A stretch of 33,223 nt of DNA. It comes from Geminicoccaceae bacterium (lineage in GTDB: Bacteria > Pseudomonadota > Alphaproteobacteria > Geminicoccales > Geminicoccaceae). Where the stretch lies: positions 1-33,223 of the forward strand of contig JANWZN010000018.1 of the NCBI GenBank assembly GCA_025054575.1. Direction: 5' to 3'. The number at the start of each line of letters is the position of its first letter. The stretch's first letter is position 1. Shown here piece after piece: positions 1-33,223 of the stretch. A program made the translations under genes and the position numbers. Under the pieces are notes generated by a model, which saw only the letters and a program-made list of their open reading frames with translations, made no database searches and was not told the origin of the DNA.

Positions 1-120
1 CTCGCGCAGCTGCCTCAGGGTCACGAACTCGCCGGAACGCGTCGACATCTGCACCTTCTCCCCGCCGCGGTAGAGCACCGCGAACTGCACCAGCTGGATC
101 TCGATGCGCGCGGGGTCGAG
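1..120 (-). pseudogene. argS: arginyl-tRNA synthetase fragment (in-frame with upstream oxidoreductase)
   Basis: Reading the minus strand from about 120 to 1 gives [20 protein letters not shown] and then [20 protein letters not shown]. This is the catalytic-core region of class I arginyl-tRNA synthetase around the degenerate KMSKS loop (here QMSTRSG). The version is the [11 protein letters not shown] type I associate with beta/gammaproteobacterial ArgS, rather than the MSKRAG type I expect in alphaproteobacteria. The roughly 300 residues that should precede it (HIGH motif, editing-free core) are absent; the preceding sequence is oxidoreductase. The rest of the gene, if any, lies beyond the left edge. 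It is either a rearranged remnant or an assembly join. Confidence 0.75.
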
Positions 121-945
121 GTCGAGGCCGCGGGCGGCGGCGAGCAGCCGCTCGGCGGCCCCCGGGTCGGGGGCGACCGCGGTCGGGTCGGCGGGCGGCC
201 GGGCCGGTCGGGATAGGCCCGCCACGACGACGCTGCCGTCGGCGCGCGGGTAGAGCTCGAGCTCGGCGAGGCCGTGGCGGACCGGGTCGAGCCGGGCGAA
301 GAGGACGCGCGGCGGCAGCGGCTCCTCGAGCTCGAGGCGGAGGCTGTGGCCGAGCAGCGAGGCGACCGGCGGCAGGGGCGGCTGGAGGTCGACTGTCGCC
401 GTCCAGGGGCCGAGGGCGAGGACCACCGCCTCCGCCTCGAGCGTCCGCTCGGCGAGCCGCACGCGCCAACCGCCCGCGCCATCCTCGATCGCCAGGACGG
501 TGCCGATCAGGAGCTGCGCTCCGGCGGCGATCGCGTCCTCGACCAGCCAGCGGGTCAGTCGGGCGGGGTCGACGAGCGCGGTGGTCGCGGGCCCGCCGAG
601 GCGCTCGAGCACGCGGAAGCCGCGGCCGAGCCAGGGGGCGGGCTCGCCGGCGGCGTCGCGGGACACGAGGAGCGTCTCCACCGGGCGGTGGCCGAGCGAC
701 TCGCCCGCCCTTCGGGCGAGCTCGGCATGGAGCGCGAAGCTCCGCCGCGACAAGGGTCCGCGTGGCAGCCCGTCGCACCAGTCGAGGGCCAGAAAGCCGC
801 CCGCTTTGCCGGAGGCGGCGCAGGCCGGCGCGGCCCGCTCGACGAGTGTCGGGGCGAGGCCCGCGCGGGCGAGGAACCAGGCGGTGGCGGCGCCGATCGC
901 GCCAGCGCCGAGGATCGCGATGGCGTGCCGCTCGATCTCGGCCAA
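1..945 (-). CDS. FAD-dependent oxidoreductase (DAO family), 3' end replaced by ArgS-like sequence
   Basis: The N-terminus carries a dinucleotide-binding fold of the FAD oxidoreductase (DAO) type: [20 protein letters not shown] followed by an acidic LVERA strand end. Next comes [13 protein letters not shown], typical of the TDA3-like branch of DAO oxidoreductases, and further on [16 protein letters not shown]. The natural substrate is unknown. I favour the TTG start at 945 because GGGAGG lies six bases upstream of it (952-957); an ATG at 972 is in frame but has no clear ribosome site. The oxidoreductase signal ends near position 120 after [12 protein letters not shown]. The same open frame then continues to the window edge as ArgS-like sequence (separate entry), so about 80 C-terminal residues expected of this family are absent. 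The frame has no stop inside the window. It is divergent from the aldolase gene at 1090. Confidence 0.75.
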
Positions 946-1089
946 GGCGTGCCTCCCGAACTGCCCGGCCATCTTCGACCGACGGCCGACCGTCGCCAAG
1001 CGCGCCCGGGCGGGTCGGCGACGGGCGGGCTCGACAGCCGAGGCGCCTGCGCCTAGCGGTGGGCCGGCAGCGGCGGGGAGGAAGGGGCG

Positions 1090-1869
1090 ATGGACGGACG
1101 GCCTTGCGTGCGCGAGCGCCTCGCCAGGGGCGAGCGGGTGGTGGGGACCATGGTGTTCGAGGTCTTCACGCCTGGCCTGCCGGCGATCCTGGCCGCGGCC
1201 GGGCTCGACTTCGTGGTCCTCGACACCGAGCACAGCGGGGTCGGGATCGACACGCTCAAGACCGTGCTCGCCTGCGCCCGCGGCCTGCCGCTCGAGGTCT
1301 ATGTGCGGGTACCGGAGAAGTCCTACGCGGCGGTCGCCACCGTGCTGGATGCCGGTGCCCGGGGGATCCTCGTGCCGATGCTGGAGACCGCGGAGGAGGC
1401 GCGCGCTCTGGTCGAATGGGTCCGCTACCGACCCGAGGGCAAGCGCGGCTGCGCTTTCGGCATGGCGCACGACGACTATCGCGCACACGACGTGGTCGCG
1501 TACATGGCCGAGGCCAACCGGCGCAATCTCGTGATGGGTCTGATCGAGACCAGGAAGGGAATCGAGAACGTCGAGGCGATCGCCGCCGTGCCCGGGCTCG
1601 ACGTGCTCTGGCTCGGCCATTTCGATCTGACCAACGACATGGGTATCACGGCGCAGTTCGACCATCCCGAGTTCTGGGCGGCGGCGCACAAGCTGATCGC
1701 GGCTGCCGGGGCGCAGGGCAAGACCTTGGCCGCGGCCGATGCCAACCTCGCCTATCTCGAGAAGCTCGCCCGTCTGGGCTTCACGATGCTCGGCTACGGT
1801 CCCGACATCGCGGTTTTGCGCGAGGGGCTGCGGCAAGGGGCAGGCAAGGTCCGGGCGTTTTCGGGCTGA
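1090..1869 (+). CDS. HpcH/HpaI family class II aldolase
   Basis: This 259-residue protein is a metal-dependent class II aldolase of the HpcH/HpaI TIM-barrel family, which cleaves or forms 2-keto-3-deoxy or 4-hydroxy-2-oxo acids to give pyruvate and an aldehyde. Family landmarks are visible: the DTEHSG loop with the general-base His at residue 48, Arg73 in YVRVPE, the [16 protein letters not shown] strand-helix, Glu153 in LIETRKG, and Asp179 in WLGHFDL. Glu153 and Asp179 are the expected metal ligands. The GHFDL version of the usual GPADL motif suggests a divergent substrate preference. Length is normal. A strong ribosome site (GGGGAGGAAGG) lies just before the ATG. No pathway partners flank it, so the physiological substrate cannot be deduced. 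It reads divergently from the oxidoreductase and converges on the transglutaminase operon. Confidence 0.9.
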
Positions 1870-1899
1870 GCCGGACGGGGTCCGAAGCCGCCCGGCGGC

Positions 1900-2775
1900 T
1901 CATCCCGCCGGGACGACGTCGACTGCGACCTCGACCGTGTGCCGGCCGCCGCCGAAGATCGTGCCGGCCACGGGGGCAACGTCGCCATAGTCGCGGCCCC
2001 AGGCGACGGTGACGTGCTCCTCGCCGACCACGAGATCGTTGGTCGGATCGAGGTCGAACCAGCCGAGATCGGGGATCCAGACCGAAAGCCAGGCGTGCGA
2101 GGCGTCGGCCCCGGTGAGCCGGGTGGCGCCGGCGCGCGGACGGGTCACGAGATAGCCCGAGACGTAGCGGGCTGGCAGCCCCAAGGCGCGCAGACAGGCG
2201 ATCGCCAGGTGCGCGAAGTCTTGGCAGACGCCGCGACGCAGCCGGAACGCCTCGGCCACCGGGGTCGCGACCGTCGTCGCGCGGGGATCGTAGCGGAACT
2301 CGCGGTGGATGCGGGCCGAGAGCTCGGCCGCGGCCTCCAGGAACGGGCGCTCGGGCGGAAAGCTGGGTGCGGCCCAGGCGAGGAGCTCGGGCTCGAAAGG
2401 CGCGTAGAGCGAGGGGAAGGTGAACTCGAGGGCGGCGAGCGCGTCGTTCTCGCGCGCGCGGGCGAGTCGCTCGCGGACCGCTCGCACCGAGGGCGTGCGG
2501 CCCGGCTCGGGCAGGAGCGGCTTCCTCACCTCGACCGAGCTCGCGGCGTGCAGCACGAGCTCGCGATGGCTCTGCTGGATGGTGAGGAACGTCACGGGAT
2601 TGCCGAAATAGTCGCGATCGTCGCGGCGGACGGAGGGCGACGGATCGATCTCGAGGGCCCAGTCGCGGCAGCGCTGCCAAGCACCGCCGCGCGGAGCGAG
2701 ATGGAGGAGGTGGTGCGAGATCGCGACCGGATCGCTGTAACGGTAGGTCGTGCGATGGCTCACCGTGTAGATCAT
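1900..2775 (-). CDS. transglutaminase-like cysteine protease/acyltransferase family protein
   Basis: The product has 291 residues. The first ~85 form the bacterial transglutaminase N-terminal domain (start IYTVSHRTTYRYSDPVAISHH), followed by a papain-fold transglutaminase core. The catalytic triad is intact: Cys184 in RGVCQDFAH, His227 in DASHAWLSVW, and Asp243 in DLDPTND. There is no signal peptide, so it is probably cytoplasmic. Bacterial members of this family are thought to act more often as peptidases or amide-cleaving enzymes than as cross-linkers, but the substrate is not known. It is the last gene of a three-gene operon: its ATG overlaps the stop of the ATP-grasp/alpha-E gene by four bases (ATGA), implying translational coupling. 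Confidence 0.92.
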   Translation of the reverse strand: MIYTVSHRTTYRYSDPVAISHHLLHLAPRGGAWQRCRDWALEIDPSPSVRRDDRDYFGNPVTFLTIQQSHRELVLHAASSVEVRKPLLPEPGRTPSVRAVRERLARARENDALAALEFTFPSLYAPFEPELLAWAAPSFPPERPFLEAAAELSARIHREFRYDPRATTVATPVAEAFRLRRGVCQDFAHLAIACLRALGLPARYVSGYLVTRPRAGATRLTGADASHAWLSVWIPDLGWFDLDPTNDLVVGEEHVTVAWGRDYGDVAPVAGTIFGGGRHTVEVAVDVVPAG

Positions 2776-5336
2776 GCGCCCTCGCGACGCTGGAGCGCGA
2801 TCGTCGTCACCGCTGCCTCAGCGTGCGCGAAATAGGTGCGGCCGATCACGTCCGAGAGCAGCGGCAGGCCGCGCGCCAGGCGGTCGAGCAGGAGGGCGAG
2901 CTCGCCGCGGCGGCCCGCTGAGTCGGGCGTGACGAGCCGCACCGGGTCGGCGAGCTGGACGGCGGTCGAAAGCTCGAGCACGAGCCGTTGCTCGGCCGTG
3001 CGGTAAGGGGTCTCGCTGGGCAGGAGCCGGCAGTGGCGGGCGAGCTCCTCGAGCTGGAAGGCGGCCGAGCGCGGGTTGGTCTCGTCGAGCAGCAGGAGGT
3101 CGACGACCGGGGCTGCGAGCGGGGTAGTGAGGTAGCGGGACCGGTAGGTCATGAAGCTGTCGCCGAGCTCCAAGAGCAGGCGCAGCGAGCCGTCGTTCTC
3201 GGGGTCGGTGCGCTCGAGCAGCAGCAGGCGGACGAGGTCGACGAGCTGGATCGCGCGCTCGATCCGCCGGCCCATCTCGAGGAAACGCCAGGCCCAGTTG
3301 CGGGTCATGTTCTCGGCCTCGGTGCCGGCGAAGGCCGAGAGCGCGCGGATGCCGTCGTCGAGCAGCTCGAGGGTGGGCCGCGCTGGGAGGGCGCCCACGG
3401 CCGTCCGCCAGCGGCGGTCGACGTGCAGCGCGTTGAGCATCCGCCAGGCGTCGTGGCTGATCTGGTCGCGCACGAGCGTGGCAGTGCGGTGGACGTGGTC
3501 GAGGGTCTCCCTGAGCCCGTAGGGCCGCGGCGCGAAGAGCAGGAGGGCGACGAGCCGCTCGAGCGAGCGGGCGTCGCTCTCGGCCGGGGGAGGGCCCTTG
3601 GCGAGCACGAGGTCCAAGAGCCGATGCAGGATCGCGGGCTCGACGTCGACCCGCCCGTCCTCGCGCAGCCGGGTGAGGACGCTGCGGGCGAGCCGCATCG
3701 TAGCCTCGGCGCGCTCGGCGTAGCGGCCGAGCCAGAACAGGTTGTCGGCGCTGCGCGAGAGGAGGTCGCGGCCGGTGCGCCGCAGATGGACCTCGCGCAG
3801 GCTCGCTAGCAGCAGACTGGGCACCGGCGGCGGCGGCCGCTCGCTCGTGATCCAGAGATCCTTGCTGCCGAAGCCGTTCGGCAGCGCCACGCCGGTGGGT
3901 GCCCCGGCTAGCCGGACCAGGCCACCGGGCAGGACCGTATAGTCCTCGCCGGCCAGCGCCACGAAGCAGCGGACTGCCCAGGGCACCGGCACGAGCCGGT
4001 CGCCGTCGAGGCTCGGGGTGGTCGCGAAGGCGATCGGCCGCTGCGCCACCCAGCGATGGCCCTCGCGCTCGAGCCGCTCGGCGAGCGCCGCCCGCTCGGC
4101 GGTGGAGAGGGCGGTGGGGTCGATCGGGAGGACGGGGGCGCCCGGATCGTTGCGGGCGGTGGCGGGCAGGACCGGCAGGCCGAGCTCGAGGGCGCGGCGC
4201 CGTTCGGCCGGATCGCCGAGCCAGAAGGTGGGCGCCTCCTCGATCAGTAGGTCCTCGCCCAGGAGGCGGCGGCAGAGGCCGGCGGTGAAGGGAGCGAGGG
4301 CGCGGCCCTGGGCGAGGCCGGCGCCGAGCCGGTTGGCGATTAGCACGCGGCCGCTTCGGGCCGCCTGGACGAGCCCGGAGATGCCGGCGAGGCCGCTGCC
4401 CGGCAGCCAGAGCGGGTCGGCCAGATGGCCCGGGGTCTTGCGGACGACGAGATCGACCCGCTGCAGTCCGTCCAGGGTCTTGAGGTAGAGGAGATCGTCG
4501 CGGACCGTCAGATCCGCCCCCTGGACCAGCGAATAGCCCAGATAGCGGGCGAGGTAGGCATGGCTGAACCAGGTCGGGCTTTCGGGGTCGCCCGCCAGCA
4601 CGACGATCCGGCCGTCGTCGCGACCGCTCGCGGCCAGCAGCGTCTCCTGCAGGCGCTGGTAGTAGCCGGCGAGCCGGCGCGTGTTGGTGGCGGCGAACAG
4701 CTCGGCGAAGCCGTGGCTCAGCGCCACCCGGCTCGCGAGCGCGTAGCCGTTGCCGATCGGCGCGTCACACTGGTCGCCGAGCACCACCCAGCGGCCCTCG
4801 GCGGTGCGCGCGAGATCGCAGGCGTAGAGGAGGAGGAAGCGGCGGTCCGGCCGGTCGGGGCGGACCTCGGGCCTGACGTATTCGGCGGCGGCCAGCACGA
4901 GCGAAGGCGGCAGCGAGCCGTCACGCAGGAGGGTGCGCGGCCCGTAGAGGTCGGCCAGCGCGCGATCGAGCAGGCGAGCGCGCTGGGCGAGGCCGCGCTC
5001 GATCCGCGACCATTCCTCCTCGGCGAGGAGGACGGGCAGGAGATCGAGCCGCCAGGCGTGGCGGCGATCCTCGGGATCGGCGTAGACGTTAAAGGCGATG
5101 CCGCTCTCGCGCAGCGCCCGGCGGGTGCTCTCCTGGGCCGCCTCGCGGCCGGCCGGACCGAGCGCCGCGAGGCCGTCGAGGAAGACGCGCCAGGCCGGCC
5201 GCACGGTCCCGTCCGGGGCCAGCATCTCGTCGTGGCCGCCGCGCGGATAGTCGCGCAGCAGGCGGCGGCACTCGCTCTCCGGGTCGATGGCGATGGACAA
5301 GGGCGCCGGCTCTCCGAGCGGGGCGGACGCGAGCAT
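2772..5336 (-). CDS. fusion of circularly permuted ATP-grasp and alpha-E domain
   Basis: The product has 854 residues and two domains. Residues ~30-510 match the circularly permuted ATP-grasp family (CP_ATPgrasp_2, formerly DUF404/407), with YVRPEVRP, the NTRRLAGYYQRL helix, YLGYSLVQGADLTVRDD, NRLGAGLAQGRALAPF and WVAQRPI segments. Residues ~520-854 are a helical alpha-E domain (DUF403), beginning LLSRSADNLFWLGRYAERAE. The two are commonly encoded by adjacent separate genes; here they are one polypeptide. ATP-grasp enzymes join a carboxylate to an amine through an acyl-phosphate, so this is the predicted ligase of the operon; alpha-E is of unknown function. It starts 22 bases after the DUF2126 gene stops and overlaps the downstream transglutaminase by four bases. 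The ribosome site is weak, consistent with coupling. Confidence 0.9.
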   Translation of the reverse strand: MLASAPLGEPAPLSIAIDPESECRRLLRDYPRGGHDEMLAPDGTVRPAWRVFLDGLAALGPAGREAAQESTRRALRESGIAFNVYADPEDRRHAWRLDLLPVLLAEEEWSRIERGLAQRARLLDRALADLYGPRTLLRDGSLPPSLVLAAAEYVRPEVRPDRPDRRFLLLYACDLARTAEGRWVVLGDQCDAPIGNGYALASRVALSHGFAELFAATNTRRLAGYYQRLQETLLAASGRDDGRIVVLAGDPESPTWFSHAYLARYLGYSLVQGADLTVRDDLLYLKTLDGLQRVDLVVRKTPGHLADPLWLPGSGLAGISGLVQAARSGRVLIANRLGAGLAQGRALAPFTAGLCRRLLGEDLLIEEAPTFWLGDPAERRRALELGLPVLPATARNDPGAPVLPIDPTALSTAERAALAERLEREGHRWVAQRPIAFATTPSLDGDRLVPVPWAVRCFVALAGEDYTVLPGGLVRLAGAPTGVALPNGFGSKDLWITSERPPPPVPSLLLASLREVHLRRTGRDLLSRSADNLFWLGRYAERAEATMRLARSVLTRLREDGRVDVEPAILHRLLDLVLAKGPPPAESDARSLERLVALLLFAPRPYGLRETLDHVHRTATLVRDQISHDAWRMLNALHVDRRWRTAVGALPARPTLELLDDGIRALSAFAGTEAENMTRNWAWRFLEMGRRIERAIQLVDLVRLLLLERTDPENDGSLRLLLELGDSFMTYRSRYLTTPLAAPVVDLLLLDETNPRSAAFQLEELARHCRLLPSETPYRTAEQRLVLELSTAVQLADPVRLVTPDSAGRRGELALLLDRLARGLPLLSDVIGRTYFAHAEAAVTTIALQRREGA

Positions 5337-5358
5337 GCCGCCGGGCGCCCTAGGCTGT

Positions 5359-8300
5359 CTACCGTCGCAGGTCGAGGGTGTGCGGGAACTCGGGGTCGAT
5401 CACCGGCGCGGGCGGGTCGAGCTCGCCCATGCTGTGTCCGATCCGCTCGAAGCGGGCGAGGCGGCGGCCCTCGGCCTCGAGATCGTTAACCGGCAGGCTC
5501 TCGTAGTTGCGCCCGGCCGGGTGCATCACGTGATAGGTGCAGCCGCCGAGCGAGCGGCGGTTCCAGCGGTCGACGAGCTCGATCGTCAAGGGGCTGTGGA
5601 CCGGGATCGTCGGGTGCAGGCAGAAGGGCGGCTGCCAGGCACGGAAGCGCACGCCCGCCACCTTCACGCCGCGGATCGCGGTCTCCTGCAGCGGCAGGGC
5701 CCGGCGGTTGCAGCAGACGAGGAAGCGCTCGCCCTCGAGACCGCGGACCTCGACCTGGAGCCGCTCGAGCGAGCTGTCGACGTAGCGCGCGGTGCCGCCC
5801 GCGACCGCCTCCTCGCCGAGCACGTGCCAGGGCTCGAGGGCGGCGCGCAGCTCGATCTCGACGTCGCGCACCCGGACGTGGCCGTAGAGCGGGAAGCGGA
5901 ACTCGAAATGCGGCCGGAACCAGGCCGGGTCGAGCCGAAAGCCGGCCTCGGCCAGGTCCTCGAGCACGCGCTCGAAGTCCTGCCAGACATAGTGCGGCAG
6001 CATGAAGCGGTCGTGCAGCGCCGTCCCCCAGCGAACGAGCCGGTGCCGGTAGGGCCGCTCCCAGAACCAGGCCACGAGCGCGCGCAGGAGGAGCTGTTGG
6101 GCCAGGCTCATGCGGGCGTGCGGCGGCATCTCGAAGGCGCGGAACTCGACCAGACCCAGCCGGCCCGTGGGACCCGCCGGATCGTAGAGCTTGTCGATGC
6201 AGATCTCGCTTCGGTGCGTGTTGCCGGTGACATCGATCAACAGGTTGCGGAACAAACGGTCGACGAGCCAGGGCGGCGGGGGCGGGCCCTCGCCGGGCAG
6301 CGGCACCTGGCGCAGCGCGATCTCGAGCTCGTAGAGCTGGTCGTGGCGGGCCTCGTCGATGCGGGGGGCTTGCGAGGTCGGGCCGATGAAGAGAGAGGAG
6401 AAGAGGTAGCTGAGCGAGGGATGGTGCTGCCAATAGGTGACGAGCGAGGCCAACAGGTCGGGGCGACGCAGGAACGGGCTGTCGGCCGCGTTCGGCCCGC
6501 CCACGACGATGTGGTTGCCGCCGCCCGTGCCGACGAGCCGGCCGTCCAGTAGGAACTTGCAGGTGTCGAGCCGGGCGAGGCGGGCCTCCTCGTAGAGCGC
6601 CTCGGTGATCGCGACCTGCTCGCGCCAGGTGCGGGCAGGGTGGATGTTGACCTCGATCACGCCCGGGTCGGGGGTGACCTTGATCACGTTGAGCCTCGGG
6701 TCGGGCGGCGGGGTGTAACCCTCGATCCGCACGGGCTGGCCGAGCTCGGCCGCGGTGCTCTCGATCGTCTGGATCAGGTCGACGAAGTCCTCCGCGCCGG
6801 TGAGCGGTGGGAGGAAGACGTGGAGGATGCCGTCGCGCGGCTCGACCGCGAGCGCGGTGCGCACCGGGGCACCGCCGCCCGGGGCGCCGAGCGGTGCGGG
6901 CTGCGGCCGGGCGAGTCGGTCCTGCTGGACAGGCGGGCGGGCCGGGAGCGCGGCATGCGCGGCGAACGGATCGAGCGGCACGACGTGCGGCCATTCCTCG
7001 GGCTCGAGCCAGGGCAGCGAGCCGAGCGGCAGGCGCAGGCCCGCCGGCGAATCGCCGGGAATCAGGAAGAGCCGGCCGCGCCGGGTGGTCCAGCGCTCGC
7101 TCTTCCAGCGCACGCGACGGTCGCGGCCCTGCCAGGGCTGGAGCGGCAGGACGAAGGAAGCGGGCACGTCGAGGCCGCGGTCGAAGACCCGGGCGAGGCG
7201 CTGGCGCTCCATCGGGTCTTCGAGGCGGTTGTCGAGCGGGTCGAGGTTCTCGGGCAGCTGGTGCTCGCGCAGCAGGAAATGCGCCGGATCCTCGAACGCC
7301 GGCAGGGCGCAGTCGGGATCGACGCCGAGGCGCTCGGCGAGGGTGCGGGCGAAGCGCTCGGCGGCGGCGACGTCGGCGCCGGTCGGCGCGTCTTCCCGGG
7401 CGATCAGCTCCGGGCGGCTCCACAAGGAGACGCCGTCGCTGCGCCAGTAGACGGCGAAGGCCCAGCGCGGCAGCTGCTCGCCCGGGTACCATTTGCCCTG
7501 GCCGTGGTGCAGGAGCCCGCCCGGGGCGAAGCGGGCCAACAGGCGGCGGACGAGATCGTCGGCGCGGGCCCGCTTGGCCGGGCCCGTGGCGGCGGTGTTC
7601 CACTCCGGTGCGTCGCGATCGTCGATGCCGACGAAGGTCGGCTCGCCGCCCATGGTGAGGCGGACGTCGCCGCGCTCGAGCGCCGCGTCGACCCGGTCGC
7701 CGGCCTCGAGGATCGCGTGCCATTGCTCGTCGGTGTAAGGCTTGGTGACTCGTGGCTGTTCCCAGATCCGCCTTACCGACATCGCGAAGGAGAAGTCGAC
7801 CTCGCAGGGGTCGACCAGGCCGCTGATCGGAGCCGCGGTCTCGGGGTCGGGGGTGGAGGCGAGCGGCAGATGGCCCTCGCCCGCCAGGAGGCCCGAGGTC
7901 GGGTCGAGACCGATCCACCCGGCACCGGGCAGATAGACCTCGGCCCAGGCGTGGAGGTCGGTGAAGTCGGCCTCGGGGCCGGAGGGGCCGTCGAGTGCCT
8001 TCACGTCCGGAGCGAGCTGGATGAGGTAGCCCGAGACGAACCGGGCGGCGAGCCCGAGATGGCGCAGGATCTGGACGAGCAGCCAGCTCGAATCGCGGCA
8101 GGAGCCGGAGCCGAGGGCGAGCGTCTCCTCGGGCGTCTGGACGCCCGGTTCCATGCGGATCAGGTAGCGGATCTCCTGCGAAAGCCTGCGGTTGAGCTCG
8201 ACCAGGAAGGCGACCGTGCCGGTGCGGCTGCGCGGGATCGCGGCGATCCGCTCGCGCAACAGCGGGCCCGGCCGGACCGTCTCGAGATAGGGCTCGAGGT

Positions 8301-28374: not shown

Positions 28375-28935
28375 GTGGCAGTCAGTTCAGCCGCGTCGTC
28401 GGGTGTGGCGCAACGCTATGCCGCGGCCCTGTTCGAGCTCGCCCGCGAGCGCGACGCGCTCGACGCGGTGGCCGCCGACCTCGACCGGCTCGAGGGCCTG
28501 CTCGCGGAGAGCCCCGATCTCGTGCGGATCCTGGCGAGCCCGGTCGCGAGCCGCACCGAGCAGCGGCGGGCCGTGCTGGCGGTGAGCGAGCGGGTGGGCC
28601 TGGGCGAGCTCGTGCGCAACACGCTGGGCGTGCTGGCCGATCATCGCCGGCTGGGGGCACTCGCCCGAGTGATCGCGGCCTTTCGCGAGCGGCTCGCCGA
28701 GGCCAAGGGCGAGACTACGGCCGAGATCGTTTCCGCGGCTCCGCTGGCCGAGGAGGATCTGGCGAGCCTGCGCGCCGCACTGGGCCGCTTCGCCGGACGC
28801 AAGGTCCGGATCGCGACCCGGGTCGATCCCTCGCTTCTGGCCGGCCTGACCGTGCGGGTCGGCTCGCGGATGATCGACGCTTCGCTCCGCCGCCGGCTGC
28901 AGCAGCTCGAGACGACGATGAAAGGGATCGGGTGA
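28375..28935 (+). CDS. atpH: F1F0 ATP synthase subunit delta
   Basis: The delta subunit is the stator protein linking the F1 head to the F0 b subunits. The product has 186 residues from a GTG start at 28375 ([20 protein letters not shown]); the longer upstream frame is not homologous. The N-terminal helical domain with [19 protein letters not shown] and the C-terminal [20 protein letters not shown] signature are both present. Its TGA overlaps the atpA ATG (TGATG). The F0 genes are not upstream, in line with the separate F0 operon of alphaproteobacteria. Confidence 0.96.
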
Positions 28936-30470
28936 TGGACATCCGCGCCGCCGAGATCTCGGCGATCCTCAAAGAGCAGATCGCGAGCTTCGGCACCGAG
29001 GCCGAGGTCGCCGAGGTCGGTCGGGTGCTCTCGGTCGGCGACGGCATCGCGCGCGTCTACGGCCTCGACGAGGTCCAGGCCGGCGAGATGGTCGAGTTCG
29101 AGGACGGCACCCGCGGGATGGCCTTGAACCTCGAGACCGACAATGTCGGCGTCGTGATTTTCGGCGACGACCGCAACATCCGCGAGGGCTCGGTCTGCAA
29201 GCGCACCAAGTCGATCGTGGACGTGCCGGTCGGCAAGGGACTCCTGGGTCGGGTCGTCGACGCGCTCGGCAATCCCCTCGACGGCAAAGGGCCGATCCAA
29301 GCGACCGAGCGCCGCCTGGTCGAGGTCAAGGCCCCGGGTATCGTCCCGCGGCGTTCGGTGCACGAGCCGATGATGACCGGCCTGAAGGCGATCGACGGGC
29401 TCATTCCGATCGGCCGCGGCCAGCGCGAGCTCATCATCGGCGACCGCCAGACCGGCAAGACCCAGATCGCGCTCGACTGCTTCGTCAACCAGAAGCGCTA
29501 CAACGAGGCCGCCGGCGACGACGAGTCCAAAAAGCTCTACTGCGTGTACGTCGCGGTCGGCCAGAAGCGCTCGTCGGTCGCCAAGTTCGTCAAGGCGCTG
29601 CAGGACCACGGCGCCCTCGACTACACGATCGTCGTGGCGGCGACCGCTTCCGATCCGGCGCCGATGCAGTTCCTGGCGCCTTATGCCGGTTGCGCGATGG
29701 GCGAGTACTTCCGCGACAACGGCATGCACGCGGTCATCGTCTACGACGACCTGTCCAAGCAGGCGACCGCCTATCGCCAGATGTCCCTGCTGCTCCGCCG
29801 GCCGCCCGGACGCGAGGCCTATCCGGGTGACGTCTTCTACCTGCATTCGCGGCTGCTCGAGCGGGCGGCCAAGATGAACAAAGAGCACGGCTCGGGCTCG
29901 CTCACCGCGCTGCCGGTGGTCGAAACGCAGGCCAACGACGTCTCGGCCTACATCCCGACCAACGTGATCTCGATCACCGATGGCCAGATCTTCCTGGAGA
30001 CGGGCCTGTTCTATCAGGGCATCCGGCCGGCCGTGAACGTCGGCCTCTCGGTCTCGCGGGTCGGCTCCTCGGCCCAGACCAAGGCCATGAAGAAGGTCGC
30101 CGGGCGGATCAAGCTCGAGCTCGCGCAGTATCGCGAGATGGCGGCTTTCGCGCAGTTCGCCTCCGATCTCGACCTCGCCACCCAGCGGCTGTTGAACCGC
30201 GGCGCGCGGCTGACCGAGCTCTTGAAGCAGCCGCAGCTGTCGCCGATGCCGATGGAAGAGCAGGTCTGCTCGATTTTCGCCGGCGTTAACGGATATCTCG
30301 ACAGCATCAAGGTCGCCGACGTCCAGCGCTTCGAGCGCGAGCTCCTCGAGGAGTTGCGCGAGCGCGGCAAGGATATCCTGGCGGCGATTCGGGATACGGG
30401 CGACCTCGACGCCGAGACCGAGAAGAAGCTGCGCGCGCTGCTCGACGATTTCAGCAAGAAGTTCGCCTGA
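28935..30470 (+). CDS. atpA: F1F0 ATP synthase subunit alpha
   Basis: The alpha subunit carries the non-catalytic nucleotide sites of the F1 hexamer. The product has 511 residues, normal length. It begins [16 protein letters not shown] and has a Walker A motif, GDRQTGKT, at residues 169-176. The Walker B region [12 protein letters not shown] follows, and [11 protein letters not shown] lies in the C-terminal helical domain. I prefer the ATG at 28935, overlapping the atpH stop, to the GTG one codon earlier. The next gene starts 18 bases after its stop. Confidence 0.98.
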
Positions 30471-30488
30471 GCCAGGGGGCGAGCGCCC

Positions 30489-31373
30489 GTGCCCAGCCTC
30501 AAGGACATGCGAACCCGGATCAACTCGGTCCGGGCGACCCGCAAGATCACGAGTGCCATGAAACTTGTCGCCGGCTCGAAGCTGCGCCGGGCCCAGGAGC
30601 ACGCGGAGGCGGCGCGGCCGTTCGCCGCCAAGATGGCGGCGATGCTGGCCAACCTCGCGGCGGCGGTGAAGGATCAGGGCGAAGCACCGCCGCTCTTGGC
30701 CGGCACCGGCAAGGACGAGGTGCATCTGATCGTGGTCGCGACCGCCGATCGCGGCCTGTGCGGTGCCTTCAACAGCTCGATCGTCCGTGCGACCCGCCGC
30801 CGGATCCAGGAGCTCAAGGAGCAGGGCAAGCAGGTCAAGCTCATCTGCGTCGGCCGCAAAGGTCGCGACATGCTCCGGCGCGAATATGGCGACCTGATCG
30901 TCGAGTTCATCGACGGGATCGCCGGCAAACGACGGATCGCCTTCGCCGATGCCGAGCGGATCGCGCGCAAGGTGTTGGAGCTCTACGAGGCGGGCGAGTT
31001 CGACGTCGCCACGATCGTCTTCAACCGCTTCAGGAGCGCCATGTCGCAGGTCGTGACCTTCAAGCAGCTCGTCCCCGTCGAGCCGCCCGAGGCCGCGGCG
31101 GCGGGGGAGGGCGTCCAGGCGATCTACGAGTTCGAGCCGAGCGAAGAGCAGATCTTGGCCGAGCTCTTGCCGCGCAATCTCGCCGTTCAGATCTACGGCG
31201 CGCTCCTCGAGAACGCGGCGAGCGAACAGGGCGCGCGGATGGTGGCGATGGACAACGCCACCCGCAACGCCGGCGAGATGATCGATCGGCTGACGCTGCG
31301 CTACAATCGCCAGCGCCAGGCCAACATCACCAAAGAGCTCATCGAGATCGTCTCGGGTGCCGAGGCCGTCTGA
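30489..31373 (+). CDS. atpG: F1F0 ATP synthase subunit gamma
   Basis: Gamma is the rotating central shaft of F1. The product has 294 residues from a GTG start ([20 protein letters not shown]). Both long coiled-coil helices are recognisable: the N-terminal [17 protein letters not shown] and the C-terminal [20 protein letters not shown]. The [11 protein letters not shown] loop lies between them. The length is typical of alphaproteobacterial gamma subunits. It is part of atpHAGDC; atpD begins 36 bases after its stop. Confidence 0.98.
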
Positions 31374-32840
<1,467 letters not shown>

Positions 32841-32845
32841 GGCCG

Positions 32846-33223
32846 ATGGCCGAGACCGTCAACCTCGAGCTCGTCGATCCCGAACGGGTGCTGGCGAGCG
32901 AGGCCGTGGAAATGGTCGTGCTGCCGGGGGCGGAGGGCGACTTCGGCGTGCTTCCGGCGCACGCCCCGCTGGTCTCGCTGCTGCGGCCGGGCGTGATCGC
33001 CCTTTACGAGGGTGGCAAGGTCACCCGCCGAATCTTCGTCGCGGGCGGCTTGGTCGAAGTCAGCGAGGAGGGCTGCACCGTACTGGCCGAAGGTGCGGAG
33101 CCGCTCGAGGAGCTCGACCGCGCGAGCGCGGAGCTGGCGCTCAAGAACGCCGAAGAGGACCTCGCCGACACCAAGGAGCCGTCCGAGGAGCAGCGGGCCC
33201 GTCTCGAACGGGCGATCGCGATC
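32846..33223 (+). CDS. atpC: F1F0 ATP synthase subunit epsilon (cut by window end)
   Basis: The first 126 residues are present and the frame is open to the last base. The N-terminal beta-sandwich is clear: MAETVNLELVDPERVLASEA, MVVLPGAEGDFGVLPAHAPL and VAGGLVEVSEEGCTVLAE. The helical tail begins DRASAELALKNAEEDLADTK. Epsilon couples gamma rotation to F1 and can inhibit ATP hydrolysis. It is the last gene of the atpHAGDC operon; only the end of the C-terminal tail and the stop lie outside the window. Confidence 0.96.
   Translation, partial: MAETVNLELVDPERVLASEAVEMVVLPGAEGDFGVLPAHAPLVSLLRPGVIALYEGGKVTRRIFVAGGLVEVSEEGCTVLAEGAEPLEELDRASAELALKNAEEDLADTKEPSEEQRARLERAIAI

Follow-up and report, generated by a model that had tools for sequence, protein, structure and literature searches.

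A minus-strand reading frame without a stop codon runs from a gene for a DAO-family FAD-dependent oxidoreductase to position 1 of the DNA studied here, where it reads as part of arginyl-tRNA synthetase (ArgS). The locus raises the question of whether this frame is a real fusion gene, the product of recombination, or an error of assembly. Misjoined contig ends are a known kind of error in draft and metagenome assemblies. An earlier note on this DNA had rightly described one frame passing from DAO into ArgS, and had preferred, over a fusion, either a recent recombination or a chimera made by assembly where the contig ends. The analysis reported here eliminates a spurious gene fusion. Almost certainly, the contig's first 130 bases are a chimeric end produced by assembly and not a gene fusion. 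The DAO gene itself is ordinary and is split over contigs C99 and C139, and the real argS of the genome lies on contig C53.

Materials and methods

The stretch studied, here called the window, is the entire contig C99 (33,223 bases; C99:1-33223), and position 1 is its first base. The draft genome comprises 3,546,225 bases in 429 contigs, with 95.94% completeness and 1.01% contamination. The comparison set consisted of 60 genomes, namely 59 relatives and the genome itself, and included five of the same genus (G001-G005). G005, a single-contig genome, was used as the reference for contig order.

Genome contigs were scanned with the last 48 residues of the frame as the query; 595 stretches matched, 259 were confirmed, and the best 80 of these 259 were used. 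The change point was located by DNA identity, which was also averaged in 10-base bins, with three DAO orthologs (G003, G004, and G005) and the 80 listed ArgS loci, nine of which were also taken for an ungapped comparison at the join. The missing end of the DAO gene was searched for with the last 84 residues of the ortholog from G003.

Results and discussion

Approximately the first three quarters of the DAO gene occupy window positions 131-972 on the minus strand, as indicated by Pfam and by orthologs, and the gene is cut at the contig end. Read from the sequence, its start is likely the ATG at 970-972. The Pfam DAO family (PF01266) matched residues 9-273 of the 315-residue translation with an E-value of 9.7e-34 and a score of 117.9 bits against a gathering cut-off of 27.9. 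This match covers profile positions 2-295 of 353, and thus DAO is truncated before its end. ApbA was also above its cut-off (25.2 versus 22.2), over residues 9-48 only. In an NCBIfam search with the DAO part, 72 families appeared at E-values up to 10, and the best 25 of these 72 were all below their cut-offs.

The remainder of the frame, window positions 1-130 on the minus strand, is a foreign tail of 43 codons from the catalytic core of a gammaproteobacterial-type argS, as judged from identity to ArgS loci, the drop in DAO identity, and the start of the G005 alignment at 131. The 43 ArgS residues are encoded by positions 1-129 and carry the motif [16 protein letters not shown]. In locus L054, this motif is found at about residue 397 in a frame of 571 residues and thus inside ArgS. 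The ArgS part is cut by the contig end. A 42-residue tail alone gave no family in NCBIfam and matched the Pfam ArgS catalytic domain weakly (E 0.15, below the cut-off), so the ArgS label rests mainly on the 48-residue scan.

Among the matches listed in that scan (best 80 of 259), the tail reached up to 83% identity with gammaproteobacterial loci. The top six were Alkalisalibacterium limincola, a Wenzhouxiangellaceae MAG, and two Gammaproteobacteria MAGs (83% each), followed by a Xanthomonadaceae MAG and a Lysobacterales MAG (79% each), and each of these six titles refers to gammaproteobacteria at the level of class, order, family, or species. Betaproteobacteria such as Nitrosomonas rank lower among the matches listed; where a title is silent, the named groups are taken to be gamma- or betaproteobacterial. 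The beta- or gammaproteobacterial character that the earlier note had ascribed to this piece is therefore upheld by loci of both groups. No identical donor was present among these best 80 of 259 matches, the closest being the loci at 83%. Within the set of relatives, 23 of the 60 genomes gave tail matches at E ≤ 0.001. The best of these besides the window itself were 54%-55% identical and came from other families of the same class, while three of the five same-genus genomes matched at 46% and the other two gave no match at E ≤ 0.001. The tail is closer to gammaproteobacterial ArgS than to the ArgS of its own genus or class.

A DAO-ArgS fusion gene with a function would be favored by the open frame only. 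As the earlier note had already stated, both halves are incomplete where they meet: the DAO match ends at profile position 295 of 353 and the tail consists of 43 residues from inside ArgS, so that the two parts are not complete domains. Orthologs of the DAO protein were found in three of the five same-genus genomes (G003, G004, and G005), with 70%-75% identity from query residue 7 or 9 to residue 274. All three follow the window up to the join and then continue and end as normal DAO proteins. With the DAO query, G001 gave no match and G002 two weak ones (best E 8.0e-5), below the level of an ortholog, and both genomes are uninformative on the join, for or against. Slightly longer matches were found in G011 (residues 9-289) and G009 (9-287), and these two proteins also continue as normal DAO beyond the join. 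Among the matches listed for the 60 genomes, only the contig itself covers the DAO part together with the whole tail. A junction shared with close relatives, which the earlier note had named, together with continuous read support, as an observation that would speak against an artefact, is thus absent among these matches. We therefore reject a real fusion, since the orthologs in three same-genus genomes and the genome's own C139 show a normal gene. The probability that remains for a functional fusion is negligible, and the earlier note was correct in treating it as the less likely reading.

The best change point for the join with the 80 listed ArgS loci was window position 130, followed by 127-129, which is close to the switch at about 120 proposed earlier. 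With the first ten ArgS loci, the best position was again 130, followed by 128, 129, 127, and 131. Mean DAO identity per bin was 0.67-1.00 from window position 260 to 131 and 0.13-0.60 below 131, and mean ArgS identity was 0.16-0.50 above 130, 0.46-0.60 in 130-91, and 0.67-0.90 in 90-1. The ungapped comparison and the change point at 127-130 together delimit a join zone at window positions 127-150 (minus strand), where the window protein reads [12 protein letters not shown]. Its RLLAAAR corresponds to residues 266-272 (window 150-130), and residue 272 ends at window position 130. Two of the three DAO orthologs possess RLxAAAR at this place (RLLAAAR and RLSAAAR), and the third has LLAAAAR. In five of the nine ArgS loci compared, RLKAAA stands in the same register; the next residue is R, Q, or K, and GLG comes after it. 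The remaining four have RIRAGA, RVRAAL, or RVKAAL, and the in-register resemblance is imperfect to this extent. Such a resemblance between DAO and ArgS at the join would explain the preserved open frame. A wrong join can keep a frame open where a short in-register resemblance exists, and thus, close to a contig end, a frame that stays open through a join is not evidence of a fusion gene when taken alone.

The true continuation of the DAO gene is located elsewhere in the assembly. The G003 query matched C139:3-200 with 80% identity over query residues 19-84, and the next best of the six matches (46%) lies in another gene, whose frame has 428 residues. C139, a contig of 3732 bases, begins within the DAO frame, which ends at a stop codon 66 residues later. 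These residues cover positions 311-353 of the Pfam DAO profile and complement the 2-295 covered on C99. Without the tail, the gene shows nothing unusual and is only split between contigs. A 4901-base stretch of G005 aligned from query positions 532-4200 with C139:3-3722 (85%) and from 4256-4901 with C99:131-776 (78%). C139 is accordingly collinear with the neighboring G005 region, the alignment of the DAO region begins at window position 131, and 55 bases of G005 separate C139 from C99:131. A separate blastn comparison reproduced the 55-base distance, the identity being 75% for C99:131-1200 and 85% for C139. These 55 bases equal eighteen codons and one base, which fits the frame, as window position 131 is a second codon base and C139:3 is a first base. 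Because G005 places both pieces, the order and orientation of C139 and C99 as neighbors can be deduced, with approximately 55 bases missing between them. The assembly yielded no copy of the 55 intervening bases; a weak match on C344 (75%) overlaps the part of the query in which they lie. Window positions 111-130 also match 20 bases at another place of the G005 locus (95%, E 4e-4), which is taken as chance.

It could be proposed that real recombination or horizontal transfer has carried part of a gammaproteobacterial argS into the DAO gene, in the whole population or in some of its cells. The uninterrupted frame at the join and the foreign type of the tail would both agree with such an event. 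However, the 3' part of the DAO gene starts at the first bases of C139, and this contig runs collinear with G005, where the two pieces are separated by no more than 55 bases. Moreover, the left end of C99 is about 130 bases away from the join, within approximately one read length of it, and an insertion would have to coincide with a break in the assembly. The search for a second complete argS that the earlier note had suggested led to contig C53, where a complete ArgS at 5123-6772 scores 320.5 bits against TIGR00456 and contains the N-terminal, catalytic, and DALR domains. The tail is not derived from this gene, a possibility that we reject since the C53 ArgS is only 40%-41% identical to it over the stretch. 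Besides C53, the ArgS family-model search of the genome returned only C366 (25 bits, 32 positions, below the cut-off), whose frame reads like leucyl-tRNA synthetase, and a match to the tail on C32 was 41% identical with an E-value of 0.47. The family search and the tail search of the genome show no second ArgS of the tail's type. Recombination is thus very improbable. Still less probable is a variant in which a fraction of the population carries a real, recent recombination of foreign argS DNA in the DAO gene and the remainder is intact, with the assembler breaking at the variant site.

A chimeric contig end, which is strongly supported by the place of the join at the contig end, by C139, and by G005, may have arisen as follows. 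The assembly would have broken within the DAO gene, where the GC content is very high. The 55 bases of G005 are 85% GC and rank 48 among 1595 same-size stretches in a 16-kb locus; the surrounding 135 bases rank 8 of 159 in folding energy (DNA parameters, G005). Dips of coverage in such GC-rich or folded stretches are a usual cause of contig ends, and a high GC content may have been the cause here as well. The contig would then have been extended by roughly one short-read length into the argS of a different, gammaproteobacterial organism; 130 bases is about the length of one short read. It is possible that the assembler used a word shared by the two genes, and that the jump at their in-frame resemblance kept the frame open. 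As in other chimeric contig ends, foreign sequence of about a read length stands at the extreme end, the join falls at a local similarity, and the true continuation is on another contig. In contrast to these, the join in C99 keeps an open reading frame and therefore looked like a gene fusion. The tail resembles gammaproteobacterial-type ArgS over its 43 residues (up to 83% identity among the matches listed), although it is only a fragment and differs from the ArgS of its own genome.

Several short matches were also observed at the left end. A plasmid search with window positions 1-400 returned three Sinorhizobium records with 72 bases at 78%, and the one inspected has no annotated features there. 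Window positions 1-1200 gave ten further short matches to the genome itself, and only one of them, on C222, falls in the tail (49 bases, 80%, window 80-128). By eye, none of the six frames of the C222 match reads as ArgS.

The right end of C99 is in order. Its last 4724 bases align at full length to G005:C1:1512015-1516735 with 88% identity, to the last base, and we therefore reject disorder at both ends of the contig. The orientation of this match agrees with that of the DAO end, and the distance of about 32.5 kb fits the contig. The two stretches compared with G005 (131-1200 and 28500-33223) belong with the same-genus genome. On the plus strand, an intact-looking gene at window positions 1090-1869 is divergent from the DAO gene, and its translation reads like an HpcH/HpaI-type aldolase.
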